A DNA stretch of 64,000 nt from Lewinella sp. 4G2 (lineage in GTDB: Bacteria > Bacteroidota > Bacteroidia > Chitinophagales > Saprospiraceae), in assembly GCF_001625015.1 (NCBI RefSeq), contig NZ_LVWJ02000014.1, positions 992,001-1,056,000 on the forward strand. The letters are read 5' to 3'. Under the pieces are notes generated by a model. That model was not told the DNA's origin. It saw only the letters and a program-made list of their open reading frames with translations, and made no database searches. Positions 7,557 to 58,405 of the stretch are shown here, piece by piece; position 1 is the stretch's first letter; each line of letters opens with the position of its first letter. Position numbers and translations under genes: made by a program.

Positions 7557-8009
7557 AGGGACTTTAGACGTTGGATTTTAGATTTTGGACGGGATACCTT
7601 GAGGCTTGGGAGGGTATATTTCCTTTAACCGTGGTAGTGATTTTCAGGCGGAAAGGCATTGACGGACTTTAGACGTTGGATTTTAGATTTTAGACGGGAT
7701 ACTTCGGGACTTGGGAGGGGCTATTCGTCCCTTGCGGGTGGTAGTAAAATTTCTTCGGATTGGCGTTAAGAACGCTGCACTGTTCGAGCTAGTACTATTG
7801 TTAGTTGAAATACAAATTTAATGTAAGCCTAAGGCTGAGCTTGAAAAGCAATTTAATGAGCGAGTTTGCAGCGTTTAGCCAATCCGAAGAAATTTTGCGT
7901 TAAGCCACCTGCACAGGACAAGACTTTTGCTTCTTTTGGTCACAAAAGAAGTGTAAGAAGAGAAATGACGATAAGCATCGACCTAAAGGTCGACGTACCG
8001 GGAGCCGGA
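7557..8009 (+). repeat. Composite repeat, copy 1 (type I arms)
   Basis: Starts with a solitary alpha block plus left-arm remnant (7557-7663), then a complete element. Alpha block (GACGTTGGATTTTAGATTTT..., 7664-7735); left arm containing AAATTTCTTCGGATTGGCG and AACGCTGCA (about 7736-7783); spacer of about 80 nt; right arm TGCAGCGTTTAGCCAATCC... (about 7868-7912) pairing with the left; gamma hairpin CTTCTTTTG-GTCA-CAAAAGAAG (7931-7952); delta hairpin CGACCT-AA-AGGTCG (7979-7992) followed by ACGTACCGGGAGCCGG. An open frame over gamma-delta reading SIDLKVDVPGAG recurs in other copies and is not a gene. Confidence 0.85.
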
Positions 8010-8012
8010 AAA

Positions 8013-8050
8013 CAGAAAGAGCCCTTCACAAAACTGCAAAGGGCTCTTCC
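8013..8050 (-). terminator. Rho-independent terminator of the DUF2911 gene
   Basis: Ten-base stem AAGAGCCCTT (8017-8026) / AAGGGCTCTT (8039-8048), 12-nt loop, with a T-rich run (CTGTTTTCC) on the minus strand after the stem. It is about 20 nt past the stop codon. Confidence 0.75.
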
Positions 8051-8066
8051 AATAAAGTAAGTCAAG

Positions 8067-9167
8067 TTACTTCAACGTGATGGGCAACCGCGCCATCGTA
8101 TCCTCCCACCCAAAGATTAGGTGAATGGTGTTATCACCCATTTCCACGAAAGTGGCGGATAAGGCTTCCAGCTTTTCTGGTGTCTTTTCCGTCTTGGCTT
8201 TGAAGGTGAGGACGGTGGACTCCTCATCAAAATTAGGCGTCCCCCAACTCTGGTAGGATTTGTGAAGAACAAACTCCCACTCGTCCGCTTCGGGGCGAGC
8301 GAAAAGCCCGTACCGACCGGCCTTTACGGGCTTACCGTCAATCATCACGTCTTCAAAAAAGAAAACCTGGGGCGTTTCGTTAGCCCCCAAACGCCACAAT
8401 TCACCGTACTTAATGAGTTCGCCGAAAGCTACCCGGTCCTTCAACTGCGGGCGGCTGTAGACTACCCGGACCTTAGGCTCGTTAGCGGCCAGTTCTTCCG
8501 GCTTGACGAAGTTGCGCAAGCGGCTCATGTTCGGGTACTGGACGAGATCCATCGGGCTGGGATCATCGTCAGCCATGAAGGCAGGGTTAATGTTGATGGG
8601 TAGTTTAGCGCGGCTGTTCCCCCACTCCATGAACATGTGGATGGTGTTATCGTCTACGTCCTGAAAACCAATGGTAAAGCTTTCGCGAGCGTTGGGCACC
8701 TGGATGACGTCAATCTTGGCGGAGACGATGTCCTTGCTTACGTCGCGGTCCTGGCTACCACCGATAAACCGTTCCTTAGAAAGCTTCCAGATCCAGCTGG
8801 TAGCGTTGACGGGTTCGGCGAACATGGTATAAGTACCCCGGAAGACCCGCACGTTGTTGATCTCCACGTCCTGAAAAAAAGTAATCTCGGTAGCTTCGTT
8901 GGCTCCCAGGCGCCAGTCCTGACCGTAAGGAATAAGCTCACCAAACAGTTCCCGGCCCTGCATTTTCGGACGACTGTAGAGTACGCGGATCTTCATGGTC
9001 CGGTCCTTATCGTCCTCATCGAGGTAGTTGAGGTAACGGGAGCGGGAGGGGTAGTAAGCTCCGTCCATTGGGCTCTTATCGAGGCCACCAAATTTGACGT
9101 CCTGAGCGGAAAGGCCCGCACTGAAGAGGAGGCAGAGACCAAGGGTGAAGAAGTAGTGTAAGCGCAA
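8067..9167 (-). CDS. Secreted protein with two DUF2911 domains
   Basis: Exported protein of about 366 aa made of two homologous DUF2911 units. Each has the signature YSRPxxxxRxxFGELIxYGxxWRLGANE followed by a hydrophobic F-x-DV-x-I strand and G-x-Y-x-x-FA. Function of DUF2911 is not established. The start is uncertain: there is no ATG before the signal peptide, and TTG at 9167 gives a clean signal (RLHYFFTLGLCLLFSAGLSAQ). An in-frame TTG at 9233 exists, but a possible promoter -7 element (TACTTTCG, minus strand 9203-9196) lies between the two, favouring 9167. It is followed by its own terminator. Confidence 0.85.
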   Translation of the reverse strand: MRLHYFFTLGLCLLFSAGLSAQDVKFGGLDKSPMDGAYYPSRSRYLNYLDEDDKDRTMKIRVLYSRPKMQGRELFGELIPYGQDWRLGANEATEITFFQDVEINNVRVFRGTYTMFAEPVNATSWIWKLSKERFIGGSQDRDVSKDIVSAKIDVIQVPNARESFTIGFQDVDDNTIHMFMEWGNSRAKLPININPAFMADDDPSPMDLVQYPNMSRLRNFVKPEELAANEPKVRVVYSRPQLKDRVAFGELIKYGELWRLGANETPQVFFFEDVMIDGKPVKAGRYGLFARPEADEWEFVLHKSYQSWGTPNFDEESTVLTFKAKTEKTPEKLEALSATFVEMGDNTIHLIFGWEDTMARLPITLK

Positions 9168-9300
9168 AACAGCAGTATTTTGGTTAAGTAAAGCGCGAAA
9201 GTACGTTGGCTCTTTGAGGTAAAGTGACGCCAACGGTACTTGGAAAGTGAAGGAGTCGTTAATGGATTATGGCTTAGGTACTGTTAGGAAAGCTGCTTCC

Positions 9301-9780
9301 TGGCTCCCGGCCGGGTTTACTCCCGGTACGTCGACCTTTAGGTCGATGCTCAGCGCAACCTCTTCTCTATTACTTCTCTTCTACCACTTCTTTTCAGATG
9401 AAAAGGAGCAAAAATCTTGTCCTTTGCGGGTGGCTTAACGCGATTTCTCGGCGGAAAAGCTAAAATCTGCCAACTCGCCAAACGCTTTGTTCGCTGTGTT
9501 TTAGTCTCTTGATTGCATTATATAGTGGGCTAATTCTCTAAACTTGCGCGTGCTCAAACAATGCAGATTTCTTCACGCTTTTCCGCCGAGAAATCACTAC
9601 CACCCGCAAGGGACGGATACCCACCCAAGCCTCCAGATATCCCGTCCAAAATCTAAAATCTAACGTCCAAAATCCCAGACCCCCTTCCCGCCAAGAAATC
9701 ACTACCACCCGCAAGGGACGGATACCCACCCAAGCCTCCAGGTATCCCGTCTAAAATCTAAAATCTAACGTCTAAAATCC
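9301..9780 (-). repeat. Composite repeat, copy 2 (type II arms), reverse orientation
   Basis: Read on the minus strand it ends with delta (CGACCTTTAGGTCG on plus, 9331-9345) and gamma (plus CTTCTTTTCAGATGAAAAGGAG, about 9388-9409). The right arm at about 9418-9472 (GCGGGTGGCTTAACGCGATTTCTCGGCGGAAAAGC) and left arm at about 9568-9623 pair almost perfectly; the outer stem is GCGGGTGG/CCACCCGC. Spacer is about 95 nt. The alpha block lies at 9610-9677, followed by a second solitary left arm plus alpha block (9677-9780) that abuts the 3' end of the GH5-like gene. Confidence 0.85.
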
Positions 9781-9787
9781 CCAAAAC

Positions 9788-10945
9788 CTACCGCCCCGTC
9801 AACTGCCGAAACATCTTAATCTCCGCCTCATCGTAAGGCCGCCCATCCGGGTAAAAGAGGTCATGAAAGAAGACTTCGGGGAGGGGCTCTGATTCCCAAT
9901 CCGTCGTCACTTCGCCGCGGGCACGAAGTTGGTTCGGCCACATCCGCGTTCCGAAGCGGTTGCGGCTGTGCCATCCGAAGACGGTGCCGGATTTACCCGC
10001 CACGAGGCCCCAATTAATAGCCCCAACGTTAAGGGCCTTGAGCAACGGTAGGTTTTCGAACACATTGCTGTTATACGTGCGCGCGAGCCATTCCGAAACG
10101 ATGACGGGCCGGCCATCCGCGCGGTATTTATTGACGCTGCTGAAGATGTAGCGGTTGTCCGAATAAGTGTGGATGGAGTGGACGTCAGAATTATTCCGGC
10201 TGGTGGCCTCGTTCATCACGCCCCGGCTCCCGAGGGAGGTGGAGACCAGCGGCTGGGAGGGCGCAGCGGCCCGCGCCCACTGCCAGGCGGCGTAGAGGAG
10301 CTTGTTGCTGGAGTCGTAAAAGTTGTCGCAGCCAGGTTCGTTGTAGAGCTCCCACAGAAGGACGCGCTCGTCCTGGCCGTAGCGTTGCAGGGTTTCCTGG
10401 ATGTAGCCGCGGAGGCGCTCCCGGTCCGCATCCGTCTCGCTGCCCTCCGCGAAACGATCGACGACAACTACGCCGGGGGAAGTCACCCATCCGGAATTAT
10501 GGAAGCCAGGCACCGGCAGTGGTTGCGGACCAGACTTTGCCTCCGGCTCGTGGCAATCATCAAAAAAGACGAAAGCCGGGCGGATGCCCAGGGATTGGCA
10601 GATCTCCAGAAAGGCATCCATGCGTTCGTAGAGGCCGGCCTTGTCGTCGCGCCAAACGAGGTCGTGGAGATAGACGCGCATAGTATTCATCCCGATATCC
10701 GCCGCCCAGCCCAGTTCTTGTCGGATGGTAGTCGGGTCCCAGGTTTCCCCCTGCCACATCTCCAGCTGGTTGATGGCCGTCCGGGGCAAATAATTCGCCC
10801 CGACGAGCCACGGCTGAGCGTCATACCAGGCGTTGGCTTTTTCCACACTCCAGCGGCCGGGGAGGGTAAGGGTGTCCACTTGTTGAGCCCGGAGATTGGT
10901 GGCACAGAAAGAGAGGAGGACGGCCAGGAGTAGAAGAAGGCGCAT
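9788..10945 (-). CDS. Glycoside hydrolase, GH5-like (cellulase-family fold)
   Basis: Secreted glycosidase of 385 aa with an N-terminal signal peptide (LLLLAVLLSFCATNLRAQ). The ATG at 10945 is chosen over TTG 10969. TIM-barrel landmarks of clan GH-A are visible: GANYLPRTA near the first strand, MNTMRVYLHDLVW, the acid/base Glu in LWELYNEPG (about residue 203) and the nucleophile Glu in VIVSEWLAR (about residue 285). The family resembles Bacteroidota proteins annotated as cellulase-family or 1,4-beta-xylanase; the substrate is not predictable. It stands alone, with composite repeat copy 2 directly at its 3' end and the R2 repeat cluster upstream. Confidence 0.87.
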   Translation of the reverse strand: MRLLLLLAVLLSFCATNLRAQQVDTLTLPGRWSVEKANAWYDAQPWLVGANYLPRTAINQLEMWQGETWDPTTIRQELGWAADIGMNTMRVYLHDLVWRDDKAGLYERMDAFLEICQSLGIRPAFVFFDDCHEPEAKSGPQPLPVPGFHNSGWVTSPGVVVVDRFAEGSETDADRERLRGYIQETLQRYGQDERVLLWELYNEPGCDNFYDSSNKLLYAAWQWARAAAPSQPLVSTSLGSRGVMNEATSRNNSDVHSIHTYSDNRYIFSSVNKYRADGRPVIVSEWLARTYNSNVFENLPLLKALNVGAINWGLVAGKSGTVFGWHSRNRFGTRMWPNQLRARGEVTTDWESEPLPEVFFHDLFYPDGRPYDEAEIKMFRQLTGR

Positions 10946-11036
10946 GGTCGGAGGAATTTTTTTTGACAAGGTAGGCGATTTTGGGAATTGGGGGTTTGGG
11001 CGGTTTATCGCTTACCGTTTACCATTGGGTGAAGAG

Positions 11037-11480
11037 AGGCCCTACGCGGCCAGAGGCCACGTCTCCAGAATTAGTAGAGTGGGCCACGTAGCGTAATGTA
11101 GGGTGGGCCACCTGCCATAAAGTAGAGTGGGCCACCTACCGGTGTGCCACCGCTACGCAAGCCGGCCCTCCGGGACGGGCAGTTATTTAGCGGCATAGGC
11201 CTCTTGTTCTCTTCTGCTCTACCTCTCCTGCGAAATCTTTCCTTAAGGGCCGTTTCTTTTGCGAAAAGACAAGCAAAAACCTCAGCAACTCCACCTCCTC
11301 CTCTTCCTCCCTGACAACCGCCGGAGGCCCTACGCGGCCAGTAGAGTAGGCCACCTGCCATAAAGTAGAGTGGGCCACCTAACGGCGTGCCACCGCTACG
11401 CAGGCCGGCCCTCCGTGGCGGGCAGTCTTGCAGCGCCGCAGGCCTCTCCAACTCCCCAACCTCCCCATCTCCTGCGAGCA
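11037..11480 (-). repeat. Dispersed repeat family R2, two copies downstream of ligA
   Basis: Reverse-strand counterpart of 5943-6275: copy A about 11275-11480 and copy B about 11037-11235. Both carry TGCGTAGCGGTGGCAC, AGGTGGCCCACTCTACTTT and GGGCCGGC landmarks. Copy A also has the AGGAAGAGGAGGAGG tail and TTGCTGAGGTTTTTGC. Copy A begins about 30 nt after the ligA stop. A short GTAGAGTGGGCCAC motif is tandemly reiterated in both copies (about 11075-11130 and 11341-11380). Confidence 0.8.
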
Positions 11481-11511
11481 CGAAGCACTGCAAAGCAAAA
11501 CCAATTCTCAC

Positions 11512-13635
11512 CTACCCCAGCAACCCCAAAAATTCCCCCTCCGTCATCACCGTAACCGTCCCCAGCGCCTCCGCCTTCTTCAGTTTCGAGCCCGGCTTCT
11601 CCCCCACCACCAGGATATCCAGCTTACCGGAGACGGCCGAGACGATCCGCGCACCCGCCGCTTTCGCTTTGTTCTGCGCCTCCTTGCGGCTCATCTGCTG
11701 GAGGGAACCCGTGAACAGCATCGCCTTATCCAAAAAGGGGCCTTCGGTGACGGCGGCCTGGGGACGGTCCTCCTCCGTCTGGGAAATGTTGACGCCGAGG
11801 GCTTCCAATTCTTCCAGGAGGGCGACGTTACTCGGCACGGCAAACCATTCCGTTACGTTTTGGGCGACGGTAGGGCCGATATCCTTGATGTTCGTGAATT
11901 GCTCCTCCGTCCAATCCTTCAGATCGGTCGCCTTTTCGATGTTTTGGGCAACGAGACGGCTGGCCTTCTTCCCGAAGTGGTGGATGGAGAGGGAATACAG
12001 CACCCGCCATAGCGGGTTCTGCTTGGCCTTGTCGATGGCCTTTTCCAGTTTGGCCGAAGAGCGTTTGCCAAAGCCTTCCAGCGCCGCGATCTTGTCGTAG
12101 GGTAGGCGGTAGACGTCCGCAATGGTATCGAGCCAGCCGTTTTCGCGGAAGATATCGACGTAGCGTTTGCCCATCCCGTCAATATCCATGGCGGCTTTCG
12201 AGACGTGGAAGATGATCCGCGCTTCCTCCCGCCCGGCGCATTCGTAGTTGGGGCAACGGACGGCCGCTTCCCCCTCAGCCCGCACGAGGCGCGTGCCGCA
12301 AAAGGGACATTCCGACGCAAATTCGATCACCTGCTCGGAGCCATCCCGCAAATCGGCCAGCGGTTTTACGATGTAGGGGATGACGTCGCCGGCCCGCTCC
12401 AGCAATACTTTATCGCCGAGGCGGAGGTCCTTATCCTTGATGAAATCCTCGTTGTGGAGGCTCACGCTGGAGATCATCACGCCGGCCAGGCTGACGGGTT
12501 CGGTCTTCGCTACGGGGGTGATGGTCCCGATTTTTCCGATCTGGTAATCGACCCCAACGAGCGTCGTCGTTGCCTGTTTCGCGGCAAATTTGTAGGCGAT
12601 GGCCCAGCGGGGGTGGTGGCTGGTGTACCCCGCCCGTTCCTGGAGCACGAGGTCATCCACTTTCACGACCATCCCGTCGATCTCGTAGGGGTAGCTCTCC
12701 CGCTGCGCTTCCCACTTTGCACAGTATCCTGCGGCAGCGCCAATGTCTGGCGTGCGTTCGCGTTCGTAGCCCGTGGCGGGTACTTTGAAGCCGAGTTCCG
12801 TCAGCACGTCGAGGGCCCGCGTGTGGGTTTCGAGGGGTTGGATGGCGTCGTTGCCCTCCGTATCCACGCCGTAGCCGAAGCTATAAATGAAAGCTTCCAG
12901 GTTCTTGGCCGCGGCCTCGGCAGGGCGTTTGTGGCGCATGCCGCCGGTGGCCGTGTTGCGGGGGTTGGCGTAGAGGGTTTCGCCGACCGCCGCGCGTTTT
13001 TTGTTCATTTCCTCGAAGCGGTCCTTGCGGATGATCACCTCACCGCGCACCTCCACCCGGTGGAGGCCGTACTTACTGAATTTCGCCGTCAGCGGGATGG
13101 AACGGATGACCCGGGCATTATGCGTGATCTCCTCGCCCAGCACCCCGTTGCCCCGCGTCGCCGCCCGTACCAACTGGTCGTTTTCGTAGACGAGCACGAT
13201 CGTGCCGCCGTCGTATTTCGGCTCCACGGCGTAGGCCAGCGGCGCCTCTTCCTCCATATTCAGCATCCGCTTTACCTGCTTGTCGAATTCCGCCAGATCC
13301 TCCGCGTTATAACTATTCCCCAGTGACAACATCGGCACCAAATGCGGCACCGATTGGAAATCCCCCGTCAGGTCCGACCCCACCCGTTGCGTCGGGCTGT
13401 CGGGCACGATCAATTCCGGGTGCGCCGCCTCGATCGCCTCCAGCTGCTTGAACAATTCATCGTATTCCTTATCGCTCAGCACGGGGTCGTCCTGCACGTA
13501 GTACCGCCACTCGTGGTAGCGCAGGAGCGCGGCCAGTTCGGTGGCCTTTTCGGCGGCGGTCCCGTCCGTCTTTCCGGCCAGGTAATCCTTCGAGCGTTGG
13601 TAAGTCTGGGCGGGGTTTAGTTGCTGTGGCGTCAT
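11512..13635 (-). CDS. ligA: NAD-dependent DNA ligase
   Basis: Essential replication and repair ligase that seals nicks using NAD+. 707 aa from ATG 13635 (TTG 13644 in frame is less likely), normal family length. Order: Ia domain (Tyr/His-rich HEWRYYVQDDPVLSDKEYD), adenylation domain with the lysine in EPKYDGG (Lys140; the usual KxDG with Tyr), TRGNGVLGEEITHN, OB fold, four-Cys zinc site (CPFCGTRL ... CPNYEC), HhH region (ALEGFGKRSSAKL, NIKDIGPTVAQNV) and a C-terminal BRCT domain (MLFTGSLQQMSRKEA). All domains are present. The 3' end is followed directly by R2 repeats. Confidence 0.98.
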   Translation of the reverse strand: MTPQQLNPAQTYQRSKDYLAGKTDGTAAEKATELAALLRYHEWRYYVQDDPVLSDKEYDELFKQLEAIEAAHPELIVPDSPTQRVGSDLTGDFQSVPHLVPMLSLGNSYNAEDLAEFDKQVKRMLNMEEEAPLAYAVEPKYDGGTIVLVYENDQLVRAATRGNGVLGEEITHNARVIRSIPLTAKFSKYGLHRVEVRGEVIIRKDRFEEMNKKRAAVGETLYANPRNTATGGMRHKRPAEAAAKNLEAFIYSFGYGVDTEGNDAIQPLETHTRALDVLTELGFKVPATGYERERTPDIGAAAGYCAKWEAQRESYPYEIDGMVVKVDDLVLQERAGYTSHHPRWAIAYKFAAKQATTTLVGVDYQIGKIGTITPVAKTEPVSLAGVMISSVSLHNEDFIKDKDLRLGDKVLLERAGDVIPYIVKPLADLRDGSEQVIEFASECPFCGTRLVRAEGEAAVRCPNYECAGREEARIIFHVSKAAMDIDGMGKRYVDIFRENGWLDTIADVYRLPYDKIAALEGFGKRSSAKLEKAIDKAKQNPLWRVLYSLSIHHFGKKASRLVAQNIEKATDLKDWTEEQFTNIKDIGPTVAQNVTEWFAVPSNVALLEELEALGVNISQTEEDRPQAAVTEGPFLDKAMLFTGSLQQMSRKEAQNKAKAAGARIVSAVSGKLDILVVGEKPGSKLKKAEALGTVTVMTEGEFLGLLG

Positions 13636-13678
13636 GGCGTGCAAGGTAGAAATTAGTGCTTGATGTTACGGCTTTTTT

Positions 13679-13698
13679 GGGCGCTGGCGCGGGTGCGA
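13679..13698 (+). repeat. REP-like motif, variant
   Basis: GGGCGCTGGCGCGGGTGCG, a variant of the dispersed 17-mer, 44 nt upstream of the ligA start and preceded by a T-run. Confidence 0.5.
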
Positions 13699-13777
13699 AG
13701 TTGGTGGGTATGTTAGTGCTTTAGTGCTTTGGGTGGTGGAGCTTTTTAGGGAGGACGACTTTTTGTAAAATGTGGGG

Positions 13778-14346
13778 ATTTTAGACGTTAGATTTTGGAT
13801 TTTAGATGGGATACCTGAAGCCTTTGGAGTTTATCCGTCCCTTGCAGGTGGTAGTGAAATTTCTTCGGATTAGCGTTAAGAACGCTGCACTGTTCGAGCT
13901 GATACTGTTATTGGTTGAAATACTAATCTAAGGCAACCCTGAAGTTGAGCTTGAAATGCAAATTGATGAGCGAGTTTGCAGCGTTTAGCTAATCCGAAGA
14001 AATTTCGCGTTAAGCCACCTGCACAGGACAAGATTTTTGCTTCTTTTCATCTGAAAAGAAGTGATAGAGAAGTAACGACGTTAAGCATCGACCTAAAGGT
14101 CGACGTACCGGGAGCCGGGGCAAAGAAAATCGCGTTAAGCCAAGGTTATAGGACAAAGCTTTTGCTTCTTTTAGCTGCGCTGCTACTGCGTGGTGGTCAC
14201 AAAAGAAGTGCAAGAGAAGAATTGACGTTAAGCATCGACCTAAAGGTCGACGTACCGGGAGCCGGGGGCACGCGCGTTGACCAATAGTAATAAGATAAAA
14301 CTTCAGAAGAGATATGAAATTTAATCCCGACCGGAGGTCGGGAACC
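13778..14346 (+). repeat. Composite repeat, copy 3 (type I arms) with duplicated gamma-delta
   Basis: Alpha 13778-13840; left arm about 13840-13890 (GCAGGTGG then AAATTTCTTCGGATTAGC, AACGCTGCA); spacer about 85 nt; right arm about 13975-14025, pairing throughout. Gamma here is CTTCTTTTC-ATCT-GAAAAGAAG (14041-14062), where the closing G-C pair is flipped relative to copy 1 and pairing is kept. Delta 14087-14120. A second gamma-delta set follows (14135-14270) in which the gamma loop is expanded by AGCTGCGCTGCTACTGCGTG, then a delta variant CCCGACC-GGA-GGTCGGG (14325-14341). Copy 4 repeats this same extended order. Confidence 0.85.
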
Positions 14347-14450
14347 GATGTACAAACCGGACGCTCGCGATACCTCCTACGTCGGACGCCACGAGGACCT
14401 ATAGAGGGTGATTAAGTATTTAAGTTTAGTCCCCCCTTCCCCATTACTTC

Positions 14451-14467
14451 GCACCTGCGGCAGCGCC
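14451..14467 (-). repeat. REP-like 17-bp motif
   Basis: GCACCTGCGGCAGCGCC, followed by a GTCCCGCATTAAGTCGGGGCG segment. The reverse complement of this second block also flanks the copy at 22629, so the unit is longer than 17 bp. Confidence 0.6.
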
Positions 14468-14513
14468 ACACAGTAAGTCCCGCATTAAGTCGGGGCGCCC
14501 AAACGACTAGCCC

Positions 14514-15905: not shown

Positions 15906-15928
15906 TTGGTAAAGCTAGTTGATTAAGA

Positions 15929-16606
15929 TTTTAGAGGTTGGATTTTAGATTTTAGACGGGATACCTGAAGGCTTGGGAGGTTATCCGTCCCTTGCAGCTG
16001 GTAGTGATTTTAGTGGGAGAAAGCGTTGGGGATTTTAGACGTTAGATTTTAGATCTTAGACGAGATACCTGAAGGTTTGGGAGGTATCCGTCCCTTGCAG
16101 GTGGTAGTGATTTCTCGGCGGAAAGACGTGAAGAAATCTGCACTGTTTGAGCGCGCGATAGTCTAAAGAATTAGCCCACGATATAATGTAATCAATTGAT
16201 GGATGCACAGCGCGAAAGGTGATTGGCGAGTTGGCAGATTTTAGCCTTTCCGCCGGGAAATCGCGTTAAGCCACCTGCAAAGGACAAGACTTTTGCTTCT
16301 TTTGGTCACAAAAGAAGTGTTAGAGAAGAAATGATGTTAAGCATCGACCTAAAGGTCGACGTACCGGGAGCCGGGAGCCGCTGAAATCGCGTTAAGCCAA
16401 GTTCCAGGACAAAGTTTCTGTTTCTTTTAGCTGCGCTGCTACTGCGTGGTGGCTACAAAAGAATTGATAGAGAAGAAATGACGTTAAGCATCGACCTAAA
16501 GGTCGACGTACCGGGAGCCGGGAGCGCGCGCATTAAGCCACGATTACAGGATAAAGCTTTAGAAAAAATATAAAATTTAATCCCGACCGGAGGTCGGGAA
16601 CCGGGG
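15929..16606 (+). repeat. Composite repeat, copy 4 (type II arms) with duplicated gamma-delta
   Basis: A solitary alpha plus left-arm remnant (15929-16027) precedes the full element: alpha 16032-16090; left arm about 16092-16150 (GCAGGTGG, ATTTCTCGGCGGAAAG, AAATCTGCA); spacer about 85 nt; right arm about 16226-16282 (GGCAGATTTTAGCC, CTTTCCGCCGGGAAAT, CCACCTGC). Gamma about 16296-16318, delta about 16342-16377, then the same extended second gamma-delta (16385-16525) and CCCGACC-GGA-GGTCGGG (16583-16599) as copy 3. The outer stem is that of copy 3 and the middle stem that of copy 2, so modules reassort. Confidence 0.85.
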
Positions 16607-16622
16607 GGGAGACCGCAGTAAA

Positions 16623-47635: not shown

Positions 47636-47739
47636 CGTTTTGAGTTGCGAGTGTCGAGTGTCGAGTGGCGAGTATGGAGTTGCAAGTACCGAGGGGTGAG
47701 TACCTGTCTTAGGAGCAACTTTTAGGGCTTGATGTGTAG

Positions 47740-47771: not shown

Positions 47772-47785
47772 CGAGCCCTAAGAAA

Positions 47786-47860
47786 AGTCTGTAGTCTGTA
47801 GTCTGTAGTAGCCCTCCGAATTGTCGTTGGCTACGGACTACAGACTACGGACTGCAGACT
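47786..47860 (+). promoter_or_regulatory. Long hairpin in the glyS 5' UTR
   Basis: Left arm 47786-47813 is built of tandem AGTCTGT units; right arm 47829-47860 of ACTACAG/ACGGACT units. They pair over about 28 bp with only G-U-compatible differences and one 4-nt bulge, around a 15-nt loop. The stem ends 8 nt before the ATG, so it would mask the ribosome-binding region. No T-box (specifier loop, AGGGTGGNACCGCG) sequence is present. Confidence 0.7.
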
Positions 47861-47868
47861 ATAAAATT

Positions 47869-49434: not shown

Positions 49435-49449
49435 GCCAGCCACTTTGCA

Positions 49450-50025: not shown

Positions 50026-50071
50026 GGTTTTAGGTAGGATGTTGGGTTAACGGCCCTGGTACTGAAGCACA

Positions 50072-50155
50072 ATTAACCCCTATTTTACCCATGACTTTGG
50101 GTAAATAACCCCCATTTTACCCATGAATTGTGGGCAGATAACCCCCATTTTGTAC
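50072..50155 (+). repeat. Three direct repeats upstream of the AAA_14 ATPase gene
   Basis: ATAACCCCCATTTTACCCATGA-type repeats start at 50073, 50105 and 50138 (the third truncated to ATAACCCCCATTTTG), spaced 32 and 33 bp, about three helical turns. The gene starts 30 nt after the third. Regular phasing suggests a protein-binding operator, possibly autoregulatory. Confidence 0.75.
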
Positions 50156-50184
50156 GAGAATGTAGTGATTGCTTACTTTTATGC

Positions 50185-51534: not shown

Positions 51535-51595
51535 TTAATCCCACCACCGTTACTTTTCGAATACCCCCGCGAGTATGTAGATAAATACCAATAAC

Positions 51596-52450
51596 ATGCT
51601 CCGATTCATCCAGACCCTCGCCTTCTTTTTATTCACCCTGGCCTACCTCTCCGCCCAGGCTACTACCGGCCGGGTGGTGGACGAAGACGGCCGGGCCATC
51701 CCTTACGCTACCATTCTAGTCGCTCACAATGGAACAGGGACGCTGACGGACAATGCGGGCTTGTTTCAACTTGAAGGGGCTCAGCTTGCGGACACTACTA
51801 CGCTCACCATCTCTTCCATCGGCTACGAAACTCAACGCGTTTCCTTGGAAGCGCTATCCATAAAAGCAGGAGGCGCAGTCGTCGTCCTGCCCTCCGCTAA
51901 TTACGTGCTTCAAACGGCTGAGGTGGCGGCGGACCGTATCAAGATGAAGCGCAAGAAGATCGGGATGCCCGGGATTATGAACGGGACTTACATCTACGGT
52001 ACGGAAAACAAGATCCGCCGCCACGAAATCGGTACGGTGCTCCGTCCGGATCAAGCCGCCAAGCTCGACGAAGTCATCATCAAAGTTCGGGGCATGGATG
52101 CCGACTCCGTGTTGCTGGACGTCAATCTCTACCGTATGCAGTTCGGCATGGTGGGGGAGCCGTTGCTGAAGGAGCGGGTTTTCCTACAACTCAGCCAGGC
52201 GGAGGTGGGAAAGGACATCAGTATTGACCTCGCCGATCAGGGGATTGAGGTGGAGGAGGAATTCCTCGTCACCCTTCGCATTCTCGACGTCGTCGGTGCC
52301 TTCACCGAATTCCGCATCGCCGGCAAAACAGGGGAAGCGATTGGTCGCTCCCGCGCTACCGGCGGCCGCTGGGTGGCGGATTATATGGCGCCGAATATTC
52401 GGGTTAGGGTGAGGTACCCGAAGGGGGGAGGGGATGTTGAGGGACTTTAG
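51596..52450 (+). CDS. Secreted carboxypeptidase-regulatory-like domain protein
   Basis: 284 aa with a signal peptide (LAFFLFTLAYLSAQ). Residues about 22-110 form a CarboxypepD_reg-like beta-sandwich (TTGRVVDEDGRAIPYATILV, ISSIGYETQRVSL). The remainder is a beta-rich module with two predicted pairs of strands (LDEVIIKVRGMDADSVLLDVNLY, EEFLVTLRILD) of the type found in Bacteroidota proteins of unknown function that carry this domain. It has no TonB barrel. The last codons run into composite repeat copy 5, whose alpha block begins at the stop codon. Confidence 0.8.
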   Translation: MLRFIQTLAFFLFTLAYLSAQATTGRVVDEDGRAIPYATILVAHNGTGTLTDNAGLFQLEGAQLADTTTLTISSIGYETQRVSLEALSIKAGGAVVVLPSANYVLQTAEVAADRIKMKRKKIGMPGIMNGTYIYGTENKIRRHEIGTVLRPDQAAKLDEVIIKVRGMDADSVLLDVNLYRMQFGMVGEPLLKERVFLQLSQAEVGKDISIDLADQGIEVEEEFLVTLRILDVVGAFTEFRIAGKTGEAIGRSRATGGRWVADYMAPNIRVRVRYPKGGGDVEGL

Positions 52451-52935
52451 ACGTTAGGTTTTGGATCTTAGACGGGATTTTGTAAGGACTTTAGACGTTA
52501 GATTTTAGCCCTTAGACGGGAAACCTAAATCCTTGGGAAGTTATCCGTCCCTTAACCGTGGTAGTGATTTCAGCGGCAGAAAGCGTGAAGAAATTTGCAC
52601 TGTTTGAGCACGCGATAGAATTAAACGTGACCCACAAAATGAATGTAAACGGCAGACCCAGAGTTTGAAACAAAAGGTGATTGGCGAGTTGGCAAATTTT
52701 AGCTTTCTGCCGCTGAAATCGCGTTAAGCCACGGTTACAGGACAAGACTTTTGCTTCTTTTGGTCACAAAAGAAGTGCTACAAAAGAAGTGCTACAAAAG
52801 GGTTGAAATAAAACCCGACCTGGAGGTCGGGAGCCGGTGAAAAGTCACGTTAAATCAGTAAGCAAAAAATTCATTTCTTATGGAAACTATTGCAGAAAGC
52901 AGCGCTCAATGTCTGACCTAAAGGTCAGACTACCG
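52441..52935 (+). repeat. Composite repeat, copy 5 (type III arms)
   Basis: Two alpha blocks (52441-52482 and 52486-52540); left arm about 52551-52610 (TTAACCGTGG, ATTTCAGCGGCAGAAAG, AAATTTGC); spacer about 80 nt; right arm about 52686-52740 (GGCAAATTTTAGC, CTTTCTGCCGCTGAAAT, CCACGGTTA). Both arms changed together relative to types I and II. Gamma CTTCTTTTG-GTCA-CAAAAGAAG (about 52754-52775), with a short tandem of CTACAAAAGAAGTG; delta variants CCCGACCT-GG-AGGTCGGG (52813-52830) and GTCTGACCT-AA-AGGTCAGAC (52910-52929), each with a different but self-complementary stem. Confidence 0.85.
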
Positions 52936-52954
52936 GGGGAGGGTTATGGCAAAC

Positions 52955-53893
52955 TCAATCTTCAAACTTCACGACCCCTTGCCGTTTCCGATCAACCACC
53001 AACCGCGTAACATCCGGCCGACTGTAGTGTCCACTCGGGTCGAAATTTTGGCGTTCGCGGACTACGGCCAAGGGGTCGAGCACCGCGTAGCGGAGGCCTT
53101 CCTCGCCGGTCAGAGGTTCCAGTAACCAGGAGCCGTCTGGGTTGGCGATGCAGCTGCCTCCGTCGGCGGGCATATCCGGTAAGTTATCTGCGATCAATTG
53201 GTAGTGGGGGGTATCCGGAGGCACGTCCGAGCGCCGCATTAATCCGGAAACGGAGATGCAGTAGCTGCGGCCTTCCCGCGCCAGGAACCGGGTAAGGATC
53301 TCCGTATTACGGGTATTCCCCGGCCAGATGGCTACGTGGAGGGTCTCCCCCTGCCCGTACAACGCCGCGCGGGGGAGGGGCATCCAGTTTTCCCAGCAGT
53401 TCAATCCGCCGAGTTGGAAACCTTCGATGGGGAAGGTCCGCAAGCCGTGGCCGTCGCCGGGAGCCCAGACGAGGCGCTCTTCGTAGGTGGGTTGCAACTT
53501 ACGGTGGACGTTGCGGATCTCCCCCGCCGCATCCACGTACACGAGGGAACAGTAGAGGGATTGGCCACCGCGGTCCAGGGGCCGCTCGACGATCCCCAGG
53601 ACGGTCGCTACCTTTTTGTCCTTACACGCTTCGGTGATGGGGTCCAGATCCCCGCGTTCGAGTTGTACAGCTTCGGTGGCGTAGTGGGCCCAAATATCTT
53701 TCTGTACGGGATCGTCGAAACGTGCGCCGCCCGTCCCGTCCAGCCAGAAGGGGTATCCTGGCAATATCGTTTCCCCGAACACCACCAACTTTGCACCTGC
53801 GGCAGCGCCCGCGTGGATGTACTGAACGATCTTTTCGGTCGTCGCTAACCGGTTCAACCAGACTGGGGAAATTTGGGCGAGGGCAACTTTCAT
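52955..53893 (-). CDS. Nitrilase (carbon-nitrogen hydrolase, branch 1)
   Basis: 312 aa cytosolic hydrolase. The catalytic triad of the nitrilase superfamily is intact: Glu41 (VVFGETILPGYPFW), Lys132 (VHRKLQPTYEERLVW) and nucleophile Cys166 (LNCWENWMP). The GYPFW and CWEN contexts are those of true nitrilases and cyanide-type hydratases, which convert nitriles to acids plus ammonia, rather than amidases. It is the last gene of a three-gene operon, 5 nt after the Nramp-like gene. A REP-identical 17-mer occurs inside its coding region (53793-53809), where it encodes part of the conserved HAGAAAGAKLV segment. Confidence 0.92.
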   Translation of the reverse strand: MKVALAQISPVWLNRLATTEKIVQYIHAGAAAGAKLVVFGETILPGYPFWLDGTGGARFDDPVQKDIWAHYATEAVQLERGDLDPITEACKDKKVATVLGIVERPLDRGGQSLYCSLVYVDAAGEIRNVHRKLQPTYEERLVWAPGDGHGLRTFPIEGFQLGGLNCWENWMPLPRAALYGQGETLHVAIWPGNTRNTEILTRFLAREGRSYCISVSGLMRRSDVPPDTPHYQLIADNLPDMPADGGSCIANPDGSWLLEPLTGEEGLRYAVLDPLAVVRERQNFDPSGHYSRPDVTRLVVDRKRQGVVKFED

Positions 53894-53898
53894 GGGGC

Positions 53899-55092
53899 TT
53901 AGTTGAGGAGTAAAACGAAGGTGCGCGCGGCCAAACCCAGCGTGACGAGAATGACTAAACCGCCGAGGATATTGGCCAGCCGGGAGTTGACGTGGCGGCC
54001 CATCACGGACCGGGAATTGGCCAAATACAACAAGTAAACGGCGATGGCCGGGAGCAATAACGCGTTCGTAACCTGGGCAAAACGGATGATGGCGAGCGGC
54101 CGCAAACCACTCGTCGCCACGCCGATACCGATGAGCAAAATGACCGCCCAGACGGCCCGGAAACGCGGGTCGCGATCGTCCGCCGGCCAGCCGAATAAAC
54201 CCCGGGCCGCGTAGGCCGCCGCGAGGGGAGCCGTGAGCGCCGAACTCAGGCCCGCCGCCAGCAAACCAACGCCCATGAGCACCCGCGCTGAACTGCCGAA
54301 GGCCGGCTCGAGCTGCACGGCGAGGTCCGCGGCATTCTTGACGGACCCGACCTCCGCCGAGGACGCCGCCGCCGTGATCACGATCAGCACCGAGATCAGA
54401 CCGCCGAGCGTGACGGCCACCGCGTTTTCGATGCGGAGATCGCGCAGGGACGCCTCCGGGCCGTGTTTTTTACTCACCGTGGAGGCGTGGAGAAAGAGGT
54501 TGTAGGGCACAACCGTCGTACCCACCACCGCCATCAGCAGTAGTAGCCGATCGCCACTGGGAAAGCTCGGGACGAAGCCGGCCAGGATGGCCCCGAAATC
54601 GGGCTGGACCAACACAGTCGTCAGTAAAAAGCAGGCGCTCATGAGGACGACCAGGCCAATCAACAGCCGCTCCACCCAGCGATAACCACCCAGGAAAAGT
54701 AGCAGGGCGCAGGGCACGCCGATGAGCCAGGGATAAGCGCCGGCTTCGCCGACGAGGAGCTCCAGACCCAGGTTGCCCCCCGAAATATTCCCCGCCTCGT
54801 AGGCCGCGTTGCCCACTAGAATGGCCCCAATGACGAGAAAAAACACCAGCCACCGCGACGGGCCGCCGGGAAATTCTTTGCGGATCGCTTCGCCCAATCC
54901 CCGTTGCGTCGCCAGGCCGAGGCGGGCGGACATCTCCTGCAAAATGATCGTACAAACGATGGAAAATGCGAGTACCCAGAGGAGTTCGTACCCCGTTTCT
55001 ACGCCGGCGAGGGTACACACCGTGAGCGTGCCCGGACCGATGAAGGCGGCGGCGACAAGTGTACTCGGGCCGAAGTATTTACCGAGGCTCAC
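53899..55092 (-). CDS. Nramp-family transporter with non-canonical metal site
   Basis: 397 aa polytopic protein with about 11 TMs. GTG 55092 is chosen: it overlaps the upstream TGA by 4 nt (GTGA), a classic coupled start, and gives the normal N-terminus (SLGKYFGPSTLVAAAFIGPG). The Nramp fold is clear (GPGTLTVCTLAGVETGYELLW, VGNAAYEAGNISGGNLGLELL, VVPYNLFLHASTVSKK). However the TM1 Asp of the canonical DPGN is Gly (GPGT) and the TM6 MPH is VPY, so both key ligands for Mn/Fe are replaced. Substrate selectivity may differ from Mn/Fe, as in Nramp-related Mg transporters; this is inference. Confidence 0.88.
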   Translation of the reverse strand: MSLGKYFGPSTLVAAAFIGPGTLTVCTLAGVETGYELLWVLAFSIVCTIILQEMSARLGLATQRGLGEAIRKEFPGGPSRWLVFFLVIGAILVGNAAYEAGNISGGNLGLELLVGEAGAYPWLIGVPCALLLFLGGYRWVERLLIGLVVLMSACFLLTTVLVQPDFGAILAGFVPSFPSGDRLLLLMAVVGTTVVPYNLFLHASTVSKKHGPEASLRDLRIENAVAVTLGGLISVLIVITAAASSAEVGSVKNAADLAVQLEPAFGSSARVLMGVGLLAAGLSSALTAPLAAAYAARGLFGWPADDRDPRFRAVWAVILLIGIGVATSGLRPLAIIRFAQVTNALLLPAIAVYLLYLANSRSVMGRHVNSRLANILGGLVILVTLGLAARTFVLLLN

Positions 55093-56177
55093 TGGCCGCG
55101 GCGTTGTTGCTCGAAGGCGTACAGGGCGAAGGATGCCAGCCAATGTTGGCCGGCGTAATCGCCGTCGGTGATCTTCTCCAGCGAGTAGGCGAGGTGGGTG
55201 TTGGCGATGCGCTGAGCGTAGGGATCATCGATCGAATACAGGCACCAGGCGCGACTGAAATTCAGTCCGTCGAGGTGGACGAGTTTGCCGTCCGAGCGGT
55301 CTTTTACACGACCGGGTTCCAAATTCAATGTGCCGTCGAACAGGCCGGGCAGGAAGGCCTTGGCCCACGGGGTGAACTCTGCATCGGGCAGCACTTTGCG
55401 CATCAGGTCGAGTTCCTGCAGGCAGGGGCTGAGGAAGTCGTACCCGCTAGGTTCCCAGCCGATGGGGCAGCCGGCGTCCTCCAGGTAAAAGCGGCGCGCG
55501 GCCGTTTCGATGGCGGTGAGGAGGGCAGCGTCGCCGGCGCTCGTGGCGTAGTCGTGCGCAAAGCTGAGCCCGAAGGCCGTGTTGCTGTGTTCGCCGACAC
55601 GGATGGGGTAGGAAAGTTTCGGCAGGTAGGTTTGGTAGGCCTGAGAAATATACCCCGTCAGCGGCCGCAAGTTGGTGGCGAGTTCGGTGGCGGCGGGGTC
55701 GTCCCACGCGTCCAGTTCTTCCTGGAGTTTGAGGAGCCAGGCCCAACCGTAGGTCCGCTCGAAGCTGGCGCTTTCCTTGTTCATCGAGAAGTAGGCGATC
55801 TCCTGGCGGATGTTCTCGGCCGTCAGGTTTTCGGCGAGTTTGCGGCGGGCTTCTTCGCCTCGTTCCAGCTCGGGGAACCGTTTTAGCAAGTACACTAACG
55901 ACCAGTGCCCGTGGACGGCCGAATGCCAATCAAAGCAACCGTAAAACGCCGGGTGGTGGGTGCGCGGCATCGCCAAATCCTCCTCCTTAGCGAGGATCAC
56001 GCCAGATTTATACGGCAGTGGTTGCTGCAGGCATTCCAGCGGTAAATCGGCCAGGCGGTTGGCCTCGGCTAGCGTCAATTCCTGGACGGTAGGCATAGGC
56101 GGTGTTTCGGTTTCCGGCGTGGTGTCGTTTGCGGTGCAGGCGGTTAGCAGCAGGAGGAGGGGGAGGTAGCGGAGCAT
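55089..56177 (-). CDS. DUF2891-family lipoprotein
   Basis: 362 aa. Signal peptide with lipobox LLTAC, so a lipoprotein. The body is alpha-helical with the DUF2891 signature HPAFYGCFDWHSAVHGHWSLVYLL, then FERTYGWAWLLKLQEEL, GEHSNTAFGLSFAHDYA and GWEPSGYDFLSPCLQE, in the layout of an (alpha/alpha)-barrel like some glycosidases. Family function is not established. It is first in the operon with the Nramp-like transporter (4-nt overlap) and the nitrilase. Confidence 0.87.
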   Translation of the reverse strand: MLRYLPLLLLLTACTANDTTPETETPPMPTVQELTLAEANRLADLPLECLQQPLPYKSGVILAKEEDLAMPRTHHPAFYGCFDWHSAVHGHWSLVYLLKRFPELERGEEARRKLAENLTAENIRQEIAYFSMNKESASFERTYGWAWLLKLQEELDAWDDPAATELATNLRPLTGYISQAYQTYLPKLSYPIRVGEHSNTAFGLSFAHDYATSAGDAALLTAIETAARRFYLEDAGCPIGWEPSGYDFLSPCLQELDLMRKVLPDAEFTPWAKAFLPGLFDGTLNLEPGRVKDRSDGKLVHLDGLNFSRAWCLYSIDDPYAQRIANTHLAYSLEKITDGDYAGQHWLASFALYAFEQQRRGQ

Positions 56178-56235
56178 GGCGCTTTAGGGTGGCGGGTGTT
56201 GGTTTAGGGCGAAGTTAGTTGATTATAGTTTTCGG

Positions 56236-56705
56236 CTCCTGACCTCTCTGTCGGGTTTACTCCTGGTACGTCGACCTTTAGGTCGATGCTTAACGTGACT
56301 TCTTGTCTACCACTTCTTATCTACCACTTCTTTTGTAGCCAAAAGAAGCAAAAGCTTTGTCCTGTGCAGGTGGCTTAACGCGAAATTTCTTCGGATTAGC
56401 TAAACGCTGCAAACTCGCTTGACGACTAGTTTTTCATGCAGCAATTTCGCTTGCAACAACTTTGGTTTTCAAGCATAGATCTGTAGCAGCTCGAACAGTG
56501 CAGCGTTCTTAACGCTAATCCGAATAAATTTCACTACCACCTGCAAGGGACGGATAAATTCCAGGACTTCAGATATTCCTCAAAAACCTATCGTCTAAAA
56601 TCCCCAATACCTTTCTACCGCTGAAATCACTACCACGGTTAAGGGACGGATAACTCTCTAAGGATTCAGGTATCCCGTCCAAAATCTAAAATCTAACGTC
56701 TAGAA
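56236..56705 (-). repeat. Composite repeat, copy 6 (type I arms), reverse orientation
   Basis: Delta about 56265-56290 (with a partial CCCGAC-type delta at 56240-56256), gamma CTTCTTTTG-TAGC-CAAAAGAAG (56329-56350), right arm about 56364-56415, spacer about 85 nt, left arm about 56500-56555 and alpha about 56560-56612. A solitary left arm of type III (CTTTCTACCGCTGAAATC...CCACGGTTA) plus alpha follows at 56612-56705, reaching the 3' end of the next gene. Type I and type III modules therefore sit side by side. Confidence 0.83.
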
Positions 56706-56707
56706 TC

Positions 56708-57601
56708 CTATTCTCCCATCTCCGCCAACCGCGCCCGCGTTCCCGCAATGATCTTAGCGAAGCGGTCACCTCGGCCGGCAAGTACCTGGAGGGCGTCCTT
56801 TACCGGTTGGGTGGGGAGGGTGGTCTTTGGTGTAGCAGGTTTCGCACCCATCATGAGGGGGCCATTTTGCTCCTGGCCGGAGAGTGCTTCCATGCTTAGT
56901 CTTGCTTTCTTTACCATACGCTCGTATTTATCGAAGAGGGCATCCGGGTCGTCAACGAGGAAGGGGTCTTCGGCGAGTCGCTCGGCTAATTTTAGGAGCA
57001 CGCCCTGCATGGTGACGTAGGTGACTGCCGCCACCGTCAGCGCCTGAAAGTCAGCGGATTTGACGACGTCCTGTTTGCTCTCGATAAGTTTGTAGTAGAT
57101 GGCCGTGGTGGAGATCGCCTCCGTACCGAAGACGCCCGAGTCCGACAAGGATTCCGATACGGCGTAGAGGAAGACGAGGAGGCCTGGGGCAATTCGCGTC
57201 ATGGAGAAACTGAAGTCGCCCGAAGAGCTGGAGGAGGACTTAGCGGCTTCGGCGACGGAGGCGACGACGTCCACGTAAGAGTCAATGGCCGCTGCGCTCA
57301 GGGCGGGGTTGGGCCCGGCCGTATAGGTAGCTAGGGTAGATTTAAGAATACTGGTGATGACGTTGGCAATGGCGTCCAAACTGAACTCACTGACGTACTC
57401 CGTTTTGATGTGGCGTTCGTACCCAATTTCCCGCGGGTCGTCGAGCTGCGCTTGTTTTAGGCGTTCGGTGATGGCCGTTTCGAAGGTGGCGCGGTAGCCG
57501 GCGTCTTGCGCTGCAATTACTTCCTCCAGCTTTTGAATCGCCTCCGAGGCGGAGCTGGTGTTCTTGACTACGTTCTGTACGTTTCCTGAGTTACATCCCA
57601 T
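56708..57601 (-). CDS. Hypothetical alpha-helical protein
   Basis: 297 aa; I do not recognise the family. No signal peptide, although it begins MGCNSG. It is almost entirely helical, with heptad-like stretches (ASEAIQKLEEVIAAQDAGYRATFETAITERLKQAQ), a Ser-rich stretch (AAKSSSSSSGDFSFSMTR), a hydrophobic helix (APGLLVFLYAVSESL) and a C-terminal helix rich in basic residues. Repeats touch both ends: copy 6 ends 3 nt after its stop. It is preceded by an AT-rich region (57600-57850) unlike the rest of the window, which may contain its promoter. Confidence 0.7.
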   Translation of the reverse strand: MGCNSGNVQNVVKNTSSASEAIQKLEEVIAAQDAGYRATFETAITERLKQAQLDDPREIGYERHIKTEYVSEFSLDAIANVITSILKSTLATYTAGPNPALSAAAIDSYVDVVASVAEAAKSSSSSSGDFSFSMTRIAPGLLVFLYAVSESLSDSGVFGTEAISTTAIYYKLIESKQDVVKSADFQALTVAAVTYVTMQGVLLKLAERLAEDPFLVDDPDALFDKYERMVKKARLSMEALSGQEQNGPLMMGAKPATPKTTLPTQPVKDALQVLAGRGDRFAKIIAGTRARLAEMGE

Positions 57602-57861
57602 GTTGACGGTGTGTTTTGGTGGCGGGTTTGTGGTAGGCCGCTATGTGTGTGCAAATTCTGCCGACAGTTGAGGCAGGGTATCAAATATAAGTTTTATTGG
57701 TTAAAATTAAAATAGCTTTTGGTGCAATTCGTATGGCATATTTTACGCATATAATTTGCTTGCGAATGTTGTCTGAAAGAAGGTTGAATTACATGTAAAC
57801 TTATTTAAATGTGATTTGAGGTGCCGTTGATGCCGTTGAGAATTATTAGGGTTTGCCTCCA
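57602..57861. other. AT-rich intergenic region, no gene seen
   Basis: About 260 bp of AT-rich sequence upstream of the minus-strand hypothetical gene, ending at composite repeat copy 7. No hairpin or open frame of note. Confidence 0.5.
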
Positions 57862-58405
57862 CTGGCACCCGACCTCTAAGTCGGGCTCATTCCTGGTACG
57901 TCGACCTTTAGGTCGATGCTTAACGTGAATTGTTGTCTACTACTTCTTTTCTATCACTTCTTTTGTGACCAAAAGAAGCAAAAGTCTTGTCCTGTAACCG
58001 TGGCTTAACGCGATTTCAGCGGCAGAATGCTAAAATTTGCCAACTCGCCAATCACCTTTCGTTTCAAGCTTTAGTTTGCCGTGTGCATTTGATTCGTGAG
58101 TTATGCATTAACCTTGCGCGTGCTCAAACAATGCAAATTTCTTAACGCTTTCTCCCACTGAAATCACTACCACGGTTAAGGGACGGATAACGAGAGGAGA
58201 AAATTCATCAAGTAGTAAATTGCTATTCGCCCCGGAGTCTCTGCTCCCCTCTCCCTTGGAGAGGGGCTGGGGGAGAGGACCACTACCACGGTCAAGGGAC
58301 GGATATCTTCCCATGGATTCAGGTATCCCGTCCAAGATCTAAAATCTAACGTCTAAAATCCTTTCAGTATCCCGTCCAAGATCTAAAATCTAACGTCTAA
58401 AATCT
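57862..58405 (-). repeat. Composite repeat, copy 7 (type III arms), reverse orientation
   Basis: CCCGAC...GTCGGG delta (57867-57884), CGACCT delta (about 57901-57915), gamma about 57957-57978, right arm about 57992-58050 (AACCGTGG, GATTTCAGCGGCAGAATGC, AAATTTGC), spacer about 80 nt, left arm about 58120-58185. The middle stem is less perfect here (GTGGGAG against GCGGCAG). Several alpha and left-arm remnants follow up to 58405, interrupted by an unrelated hairpin at 58246; the HAD gene ATG is only 6 nt beyond. Confidence 0.8.
58246..58266. repeat. Widely occurring CCCCTCTCC hairpin
   Basis: Perfect stem CCCCTCTCC / GGAGAGGGG with a 3-nt loop, followed by CTGGGGGAGAGG. This motif is a common REP-like hairpin in many unrelated bacterial genomes; here it interrupts composite repeat copy 7. 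Confidence 0.6.

Follow-up and report, generated by a model that had tools for sequence, protein, structure and literature searches.

The stretch of DNA considered here (the window) comprises 64,000 nucleotides of contig NZ_LVWJ02000014.1 of Lewinella sp. 4G2, a member of the Saprospiraceae (Bacteroidota), and carries seven copies of a repeated element whose core is a hairpin of about 200 nucleotides (nt) followed by a smaller 3' hairpin, called gamma. The copies sit amid ordinary genes, including those for a DUF2911 protein, a DNA ligase, a DcuC carrier, a peptidase S9, a CN hydrolase, a HAD hydrolase and one protein without a family (eight proteins were annotated, one of them from outside the window). 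The letters of the stems vary freely while pairing persists, and the conserved letters are mostly in the loops. A dispersed hairpin with such free letters and a kept fold looks, from sequence comparison, like an undescribed, spreading structured RNA.

Results

All seven copies of a composite repeat that a sequence-only reading of the window had described were found where it had placed them: a covariance model (R1), built from 29 hairpins of the same genome (the home genome) including the seven window copies, recovered each hairpin with 190-209 bits. The core hairpins lie on the forward strand at 7725..7922 (copy 1, 197 bits, arms also read in the sequence), 13835..14032 (copy 3, 199.6 bits, beside the start of the DNA ligase gene), 16088..16288 (copy 4, 202 bits) and 52545..52746 (copy 5, 206 bits), and on the reverse strand at 9416..9616 (copy 2, 209 bits), 56356..56553 (copy 6, 190 bits) and 57986..58186 (copy 7, 198 bits, with partly mismatched arms as read in the sequence). 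The gamma hairpins, with a pseudoknot predicted from the loop-swap comparison described below, were read at 7917..7951, 14027..14061, 16283..16317 and 52741..52775 on the forward strand (copies 1, 3, 4 and 5, respectively) and at 9387..9421, 56327..56361 and 57957..57991 on the reverse strand (copies 2, 6 and 7). The covariance model also gave two faint reverse-strand matches in the window (41 and 34 bits), which repeat the hairpins already named. Direct and inverted repeats were located at the places of copies 1-4.

From the outside inwards, the core consists of an outer helix, an internal loop, a helix of about 20 bp, a second internal loop, an inner helix and a conserved apical loop. The helix between the two internal loops has 21 predicted pairs in the home genome, or about two turns. 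The apical loop keeps ACTGTNYGAGC opposite GCGAGTT, and the inner internal loop has GTTAAG opposite TA; this inner motif (GTNAAR) is absent mainly in two genomes, G013 and G016. In the 127 elements of the genus, which is taken as Neolewinella (140 aligned matches less 11 reverse echoes and two fragments) the outer loop is of the GTTAAG type in 48, of the GATNAG type in 60 and of another form in 19. The GTTAAG-type outer loop is the inner-loop motif turned round, and in other groups the second copy of the motif may run in the same orientation.

Genomes G000 and G019 have short inserts of ~26-32 nt, of TTAGCTTCGCTGATCGTCG-like and GCTGCGCTGCTACTGCGTGG-like sequence, that repeatedly occupy comparable places in the loops: the apical region at loci L016, L017 and L110 and the gamma loop at L001, L008 and L112. 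It looks as if small repeats enter the loops of the element.

The proposal that the folded single strand is under selection, which had been drawn from compensatory changes among the seven copies, was strongly supported by the pairing and covariation when set against controls. In 29 aligned copies from the home genome 98.2 % of the pair cells pair, compared to 82.0 % (sd 0.7) in 500 shuffles of the 3' letters, the covariation score is 0.433 compared to 0.152, and slid partners pair in at most 45 % of the cells. The arm complementarity is not due to chance, because both the shuffle and the slide controls fall below the observed values; the shuffles break relatedness, while the slid versions keep it and score far lower. 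RNAalifold predicted 50 pairs for these 29 copies, 22 of them with compensated double changes. Within the home genome neither the pairs changed on both sides (22 compared to 21.2) nor the pair types (45 compared to 44.7) exceed the shuffles. With 101 copies from 12 genomes, taken from 72 of the sources, in an alignment that was fitted to the structure and so leans towards it, 94.2 % of the cells pair compared to 64.3 % after shuffling, the covariation score is 0.770 compared to 0.210 (at most 0.111 in slid versions) and 42 of the 50 pairs are altered on both sides, the stem sequences turning over almost completely. The folds of congeneric copies, for which 71 stretches from the genus were fetched, agree in architecture although their stem letters differ greatly. 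The same holds further away: 36 short-loop members from other genera and phyla, selected from regular-expression matches, pair in 85.2 % of the cells compared to 54.6 %, with a score of 0.738 compared to 0.187, and the core letters CGTTAA.AA, ACTGT, GAGC, GCGAGT and TTTAG are invariant or kept in at least 90 % of them.

Three types of arm had been distinguished in the window, and these are correct as main types; among the 29 aligned copies they form only the common part of a continuum in which private, compensated arms also occur. That each right arm is the complement of its own left arm likewise stands for nearly all pair cells, the complementarity being imperfect through unpaired arm changes at L022, L029 (copy 7) and L013.

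If pairing in DNA alone mattered and neither kind of mismatch were favoured, G.T and A.C would be expected at about equal frequency. Among the isolated stem mismatches of 117 of the 127 elements (10 were not parsed; a symmetric-score alignment was used) there were 142 G.T, 18 A.C and 156 others, and in unique contexts 100 G.T compared to 14 A.C (p about 3e-17). The delta and delta-prime hairpins of the same genome, which resemble repetitive extragenic palindromes (REP) and are described below, gave G.T to A.C counts of 1:1 and 7:8, and the core differs from them (roughly 8:1 compared to 8:9; Fisher p 0.0003).

Gamma lies 3' of the core in most of the Bacteroidota members examined and was detected by script in 137 of 150 elements (the 127 and 23 added). 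The loop of gamma can pair with the stretch immediately preceding it: within its own element, the longest Watson-Crick match of a loop averaged 4.05 nt, compared to 2.99 (sd 0.07) when loops were swapped, and none of 500 swaps reached the observed mean. For 95 non-redundant elements the match was 4.04 compared to 2.99, the swapped maximum being 3.28. Gamma thus appears, on these comparisons, to form a pseudoknot with the preceding segment, and by reading, a U-rich strand lies between the pseudoknot strand and the A-U-rich stem of gamma. The excess of G.U over A.C together with the covarying pseudoknot favours RNA over DNA as the folded molecule, and the strand read hairpin-then-gamma seems to be the one that acts as RNA.

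A DNA query gave at least 77 matches in the home genome (40 of 133 candidates scored). Model R1 gave 45, comprising 34 elements and 11 weak opposite-strand echoes, and the home genome is counted as having at least 34 elements (119 of 772 candidates scored). Contig C14 holds 28 of these, 20 within 350 kb (about 906-1255 kb) with 10 copies on each strand, and 5000 random placements never put more than 12 elements within 350 kb of C14; local hopping or a permissive region are candidates for this crowding. In the genus presence is patchy, 12 of 21 genomes having matches at E<=0.01, and carriers have from 2 to 34 copies. In the family at least 48 of 298 genomes and at least 31 of 112 genera had matches with stricter filters and eight candidates scored per genome. 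A second model (R2), made from the 36 short-loop members, found matches in 12 of 296 genomes and 8 of 139 genera across the phylum with 13 candidates scored per genome.

A pattern for the inner 5' half matched at least 120 stretches, 80 of them titled, in named genomes of GTDB. The pattern itself holds conserved letters, and the independent 3' half was therefore tested: 107 of 134 pattern matches then show the 3' half GCGAG...TT(T/G/C)AG with at least 5 of 6 pairs in the inner stem, G.U being allowed and the count standing without a shuffled control. Among the matches listed the 3' half was present in 59 of 80 loci, namely Bacteroidota 39/47, Bacillota 14/18, Campylobacterota 2/3, Nitrospirota 1/3, a Thermotoga metagenome-assembled genome (MAG) 1/3, Actinomycetota 2/4 (both from one MAG named Bifidobacterium breve, possibly misbinned), Pseudomonadota 0/1 and Gemmatimonadota 0/1, and R1 matched at E<=0.001 somewhere in 63 of the 80. 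On this criterion, relatives occur in Bacteroidota and Bacillota and at a few loci in other phyla. A phage origin was considered and rejected; the core pattern matched four viral contigs, of which two fold as members.

Locus L204 of Neolewinella aurantiaca (2977-6995) has eleven hairpins in alternating orientation, with about five tandem units of ~750-790 bp that contain two divergent family hairpins each. In genome G575, L343-L344 (contig C2) has nine elements in about 23 kb amid AAA/DUF234, AAA/DUF4143, SusCD-like and Fic genes.

None of the 127 elements lies inside a large open reading frame (ORF) according to simple ORF calling. When nine copies of genome G019 were compared, the shared block mostly ran from 10-20 nt before to 45-70 nt after the hairpin, and the flanks were unrelated; the shared block was longer in G020, G015, G013 and G005. 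At the DNA ligase loci of the genus the element occurs only at the home one among 20 (flanks up to 1.5 kb), and copies are also arranged as divergent pairs and tandem arrays. Miniature inverted-repeat transposable elements (MITE) have terminal inverted repeats and a target duplication; the hairpin arms here form near-terminal inverted repeats, no target duplication being readable with copies so diverged. Several elements sit at contig ends in these genomes. Dispersal of the element as a unit is also indicated, which makes the ideas of a structured RNA and of a mobile element compatible. A single series of segmental duplications, which had been named as one of the findings that would undo the proposal, was ruled out, because the sequence shared by the copies is the element itself and the scanned flanking genes in the window are unrelated.

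The orientation of neighbouring genes is random, the 5' gene running the same way as the element in 60 of 110 cases and the 3' gene in 47 of 110, and a role in cis-regulation was rejected for this reason. A family of small RNAs kept by the host and acting in trans or in housekeeping, for example as a protein sponge or as a regulator resembling double-stranded RNA, could have been multiplied by ordinary duplication. Conservation of structure only over long distances, several copies per genome and the intergenic location would all agree with such a family, as would a 2-kb duplication in G575 that carries elements together with an ATPase gene. We nevertheless consider it unlikely, given the presence in only 12 of 21 genomes even within the genus, copy numbers of 2 to 34 per carrier, the lack of any conserved gene neighbour found and a position that is not conserved at the single site tested (DNA ligase).

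Among the ORFs beside 71 loci (3008 ORFs, compared all-against-all), the 15 largest clusters revealed no partner gene: none of them is a recurrent gene, since they overlap the elements or the adjoining repeats, and one gene-like cluster has matches only in and beside hairpins. No RVT_1 match lies near an element in the genus, the nearest being at 25 kb (positions compared by eye), and the reverse transcriptase of the home genome, which has a group II intron maturase domain, is 119 kb from the nearest element. A link to a group II intron, a retron or another reverse transcriptase was rejected, as 4 of the 12 carriers are without an RVT_1 match.

It is also conceivable that the element acts as a single-stranded DNA hairpin which is cut and moved by a structure-reading enzyme (an HuH transposase, or a tyrosine recombinase of the integron type or another type), as REP and attC are, the loops providing the extrahelical bases that are read. 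Long hairpins with conserved unpaired letters and free stems are how attC sites and REP work (for REP, PMC6006769 and PMC3733652). In Bacteroidetes, according to PMC6006769, Y1 genes of subclass 2.6 are adjoined by 'atypical secondary structures' that also occur at other places in the genome; no such flanking of Y1 genes was found for the element, the comparison being one of descriptions and not of sequences. All 12 element-bearing genomes of the genus have at least one Y1_Tnp gene, as have 8 of the 9 non-carriers. However, the six Y1 genes of the home genome have no element within 1.5 kb around them, the nearest Y1 gene to an element in the genus is 3.7 kb away (by eye), and in G575, which carries at least 13 elements, no Y1_Tnp match was found, other single-strand enzymes not having been searched for. 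Elements were seen at one of 20 further Y1 loci, L391, where the Y1 gene belongs to an IS200 copy inserted into an element. The even distribution of 10 copies per strand in the 906-1254 kb cluster also speaks against this explanation, weakly, as the origin and terminus were not located, and so do the bias of G.U over A.C and the covarying pseudoknot. Taken together, this makes a DNA hairpin improbable. Of the two candidates that the sequence-only reading had put forward, the G.U excess and the pseudoknot point towards the structured-RNA family, and the evidence on Y1 genes does not favour a foldback element mobilised by a REP- or IS200-type enzyme.

At L391 (G428, contig C1) the IS200 copy occupies 1380-1973 in the right arm of the element; it is 98 % identical to L381 of the same genome and has one internal stop. 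A link to REPtrons was rejected, as elements were not found beside the six Y1 genes of the home genome and the carrier G575 is without a Y1_Tnp match.

The repeat unit as originally drawn, with an alpha block before the arms and a delta hairpin after gamma, was too wide. The order alpha, arms, gamma and delta is not strict: copy 7 is without alpha adjoining its left arm, and the copies read in other species are without alpha and delta. The composite is made up of the core element, two adjoining families of other repeats and partial tandem units, and alpha, delta and delta-prime look like other repeats accumulating beside the core in the home genome. Alpha was not seen beside the copies read in other Neolewinella genomes, and alpha-like repeats stand alone in another genus (G034). 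Partial units of alpha and the left-arm half are found in tandem before copy 1 (7559..7663, forward strand, direct repeats D3 and D6), before copy 2 (9685..9784, reverse strand, D8) and before copy 4 (15926..16025, forward strand, D3 and D6). After copy 3, on the forward strand, sequence reading located a delta palindrome as a local add-on (14085..14119), followed by a partial unit in which the right outer arm, gamma and delta occur again (14127..14268, direct repeat D4 and reading) and by a delta-prime palindrome (14326..14342, by sequence match).

Delta has seven distinct forms with 52 matches in loci of the home genome. Delta-prime is identical to a palindrome that stands on both sides, in inverted orientation, of a gene for a Y1 protein of 242 amino acids elsewhere in the genome, and because of this the delta side looks like a REP. 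This gene, which resembles those of REP-associated tyrosine transposases (RAYT), lies at L035 (G000, contig C12, 1373-2182) between inverted ACCCGACCTCCGGTCGGGT palindromes, and the 17-letter core of ACCCGACCTCCGGTCGGGT is the delta-prime behind the window elements. A second RAYT-like gene (254 amino acids) is found with different palindrome copies, GGTTCGCCTGAAGGCGAACC and then CTACC, at L036 (G000, contig C11, 1975-2097). In the window itself, direct repeats of the AGTAGAGTGGGCCACCTGCC type occur at 11071-11447, downstream of the DNA ligase gene and outside the element.

Discussion

The element does not coincide with a family in Rfam 15: in the window and 10 further loci no family matched at the elements at its gathering score, the permissive matches being far below gathering only. 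Skipping-rope RNAs are long hairpins of unknown function found in several phyla, and the element resembles them in also being a long hairpin in several phyla. The skipping-rope family RF02924 had no match at the elements in nine genomes, nor in a cmscan at E<=10 of stretches of 221 and 301 bases; its single match over the cut-off in the nine genomes (G636) has no core motif in the 3084 bases around it and differs in fold.

Like REP and bacterial interspersed mosaic elements (BIME) with their RAYT genes, the element is intergenic, repeated, hairpin-forming and clustered in partial and tandem units, and the delta-prime of the composite is itself such a palindrome, flanking a RAYT-like gene. In contrast to a short palindrome of 20-40 nt, a size which the delta hairpins fit, the core is ~200 nt long and has three helices as well as conserved internal loops; it is not beside the Y1 genes tested, and its G.U bias is absent from the REP-like hairpins here. 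The attC sites are hairpins with free stem letters and conserved unpaired bases, and have fully paired R''/R' boxes (RYYYAAC/GTTRRRY). GTTAAG of the element resembles half of an R box, but by reading it faces only TA or TAG in an internal loop and does not form fully paired boxes of the attC type; the elements stand between housekeeping genes in both orientations, and their mismatch bias is RNA-like. Retron non-coding RNAs and other RNAs linked to reverse transcriptases combine a long hypervariable hairpin with a smaller conserved hairpin. The element shares a long variable hairpin and a smaller one, and no reverse transcriptase gene adjoins it. Pseudoknots with a U.A-U triple helix are known from telomerase RNA and from the viral element for nuclear expression (ENE); the element seems, by eye, to share with them a U-rich strand, an A-U stem and a pseudoknot helix.

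Six 15-letter strings of the core had no match in the literature searched, and the 20 papers that matched strings of 11-13 letters were judged unrelated by title only. No description of the element was found, at the level of listings, in the literature on hairpin repeats and structured RNAs. PMC8040213 mentions palindromic candidates from Bacteroidetes (e.g. HMP2_4205), which could overlap with the element.

Our best explanation, to which we would give about an even chance, is that the core encodes a structured RNA of some 235-265 nt and spreads as a non-autonomous repeat. The active molecule would be the RNA of the strand read hairpin-then-gamma. The apical loop and the two internal loops, which lie about two helical turns from each other, may serve as docking sites for a trans-acting protein, in which case the helices would only set the spacing between them. 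The U-rich strand beside the A-U-rich gamma stem would allow a U.A-U triple helix in the pseudoknot, and the RNA might provide the handle by which an enzyme copies or keeps the element. A wider proposal is that the elements represent an unnamed class of mobile RNA genes across bacterial phyla, having a long hairpin, a repeated internal-loop motif and often a triplex-capable pseudoknot, and copied between genomes via RNA by a loop-reading host or mobile protein, a bacterial counterpart of the short interspersed nuclear elements; this proposal is tentative and, in our judgement, rather doubtful as yet.

Several observations weigh against a mobile structured RNA. The support for mobility is indirect, as the analysis revealed no empty site with a target duplication. 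RVT_1 matches occur in 8 of the 12 carriers of the genus and in 4 of the 9 non-carriers. The REP-like control for the mismatch comparison is small (17 mismatches), and G.T is a well tolerated, mild mismatch in DNA, so the mismatch ratio is compatible with single-stranded DNA too. The script found no gamma in 13 of the 150 elements and gamma is missing from some relatives (Clostridium, Lachnospiraceae), which means that the pseudoknot is not universal. In 3 of the 34 home copies the outer loop has been replaced by the complement of the left arm, exactly in two and with one G.T in the third; hairpin-templated conversion thus seems to occur and could make part of the covariation.

Taken to its extreme, such conversion would mean that there is no selection for the fold and that the arms are complementary only because DNA repair uses one arm as the template for the other (quasipalindrome correction); the three converted copies are what one would expect to see on this view. 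Arm copying cannot explain the loops: asymmetric ones would be lost by conversion, but 31 of the 34 home copies retain the outer loop, and the loops persist across genera. As quasipalindrome correction predicts neither an excess of G.T nor covariation in a pseudoknot, we consider it very improbable as the whole explanation.

The element is an addition to the dispersed hairpin repeats and structured RNAs of unknown function, and would be a new kind if RNA-based mobility were shown. Should the element be an RNA, it would be a structured RNA of wide distribution, amplified repeatedly and absent from Rfam 15; its covariation is very clean, and for this reason it should be possible to find its partner protein by pull-down. 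Counting G.U against A.C mismatches also gives a simple means of distinguishing RNA hairpins from DNA hairpins among repeats. Dispersed non-autonomous repeats based on RNA are known mainly from eukaryotes; if the element is mobile via RNA, bacteria have them as well. Either way, one class of repeats in the genomes of Bacteroidota can be attributed to the element.

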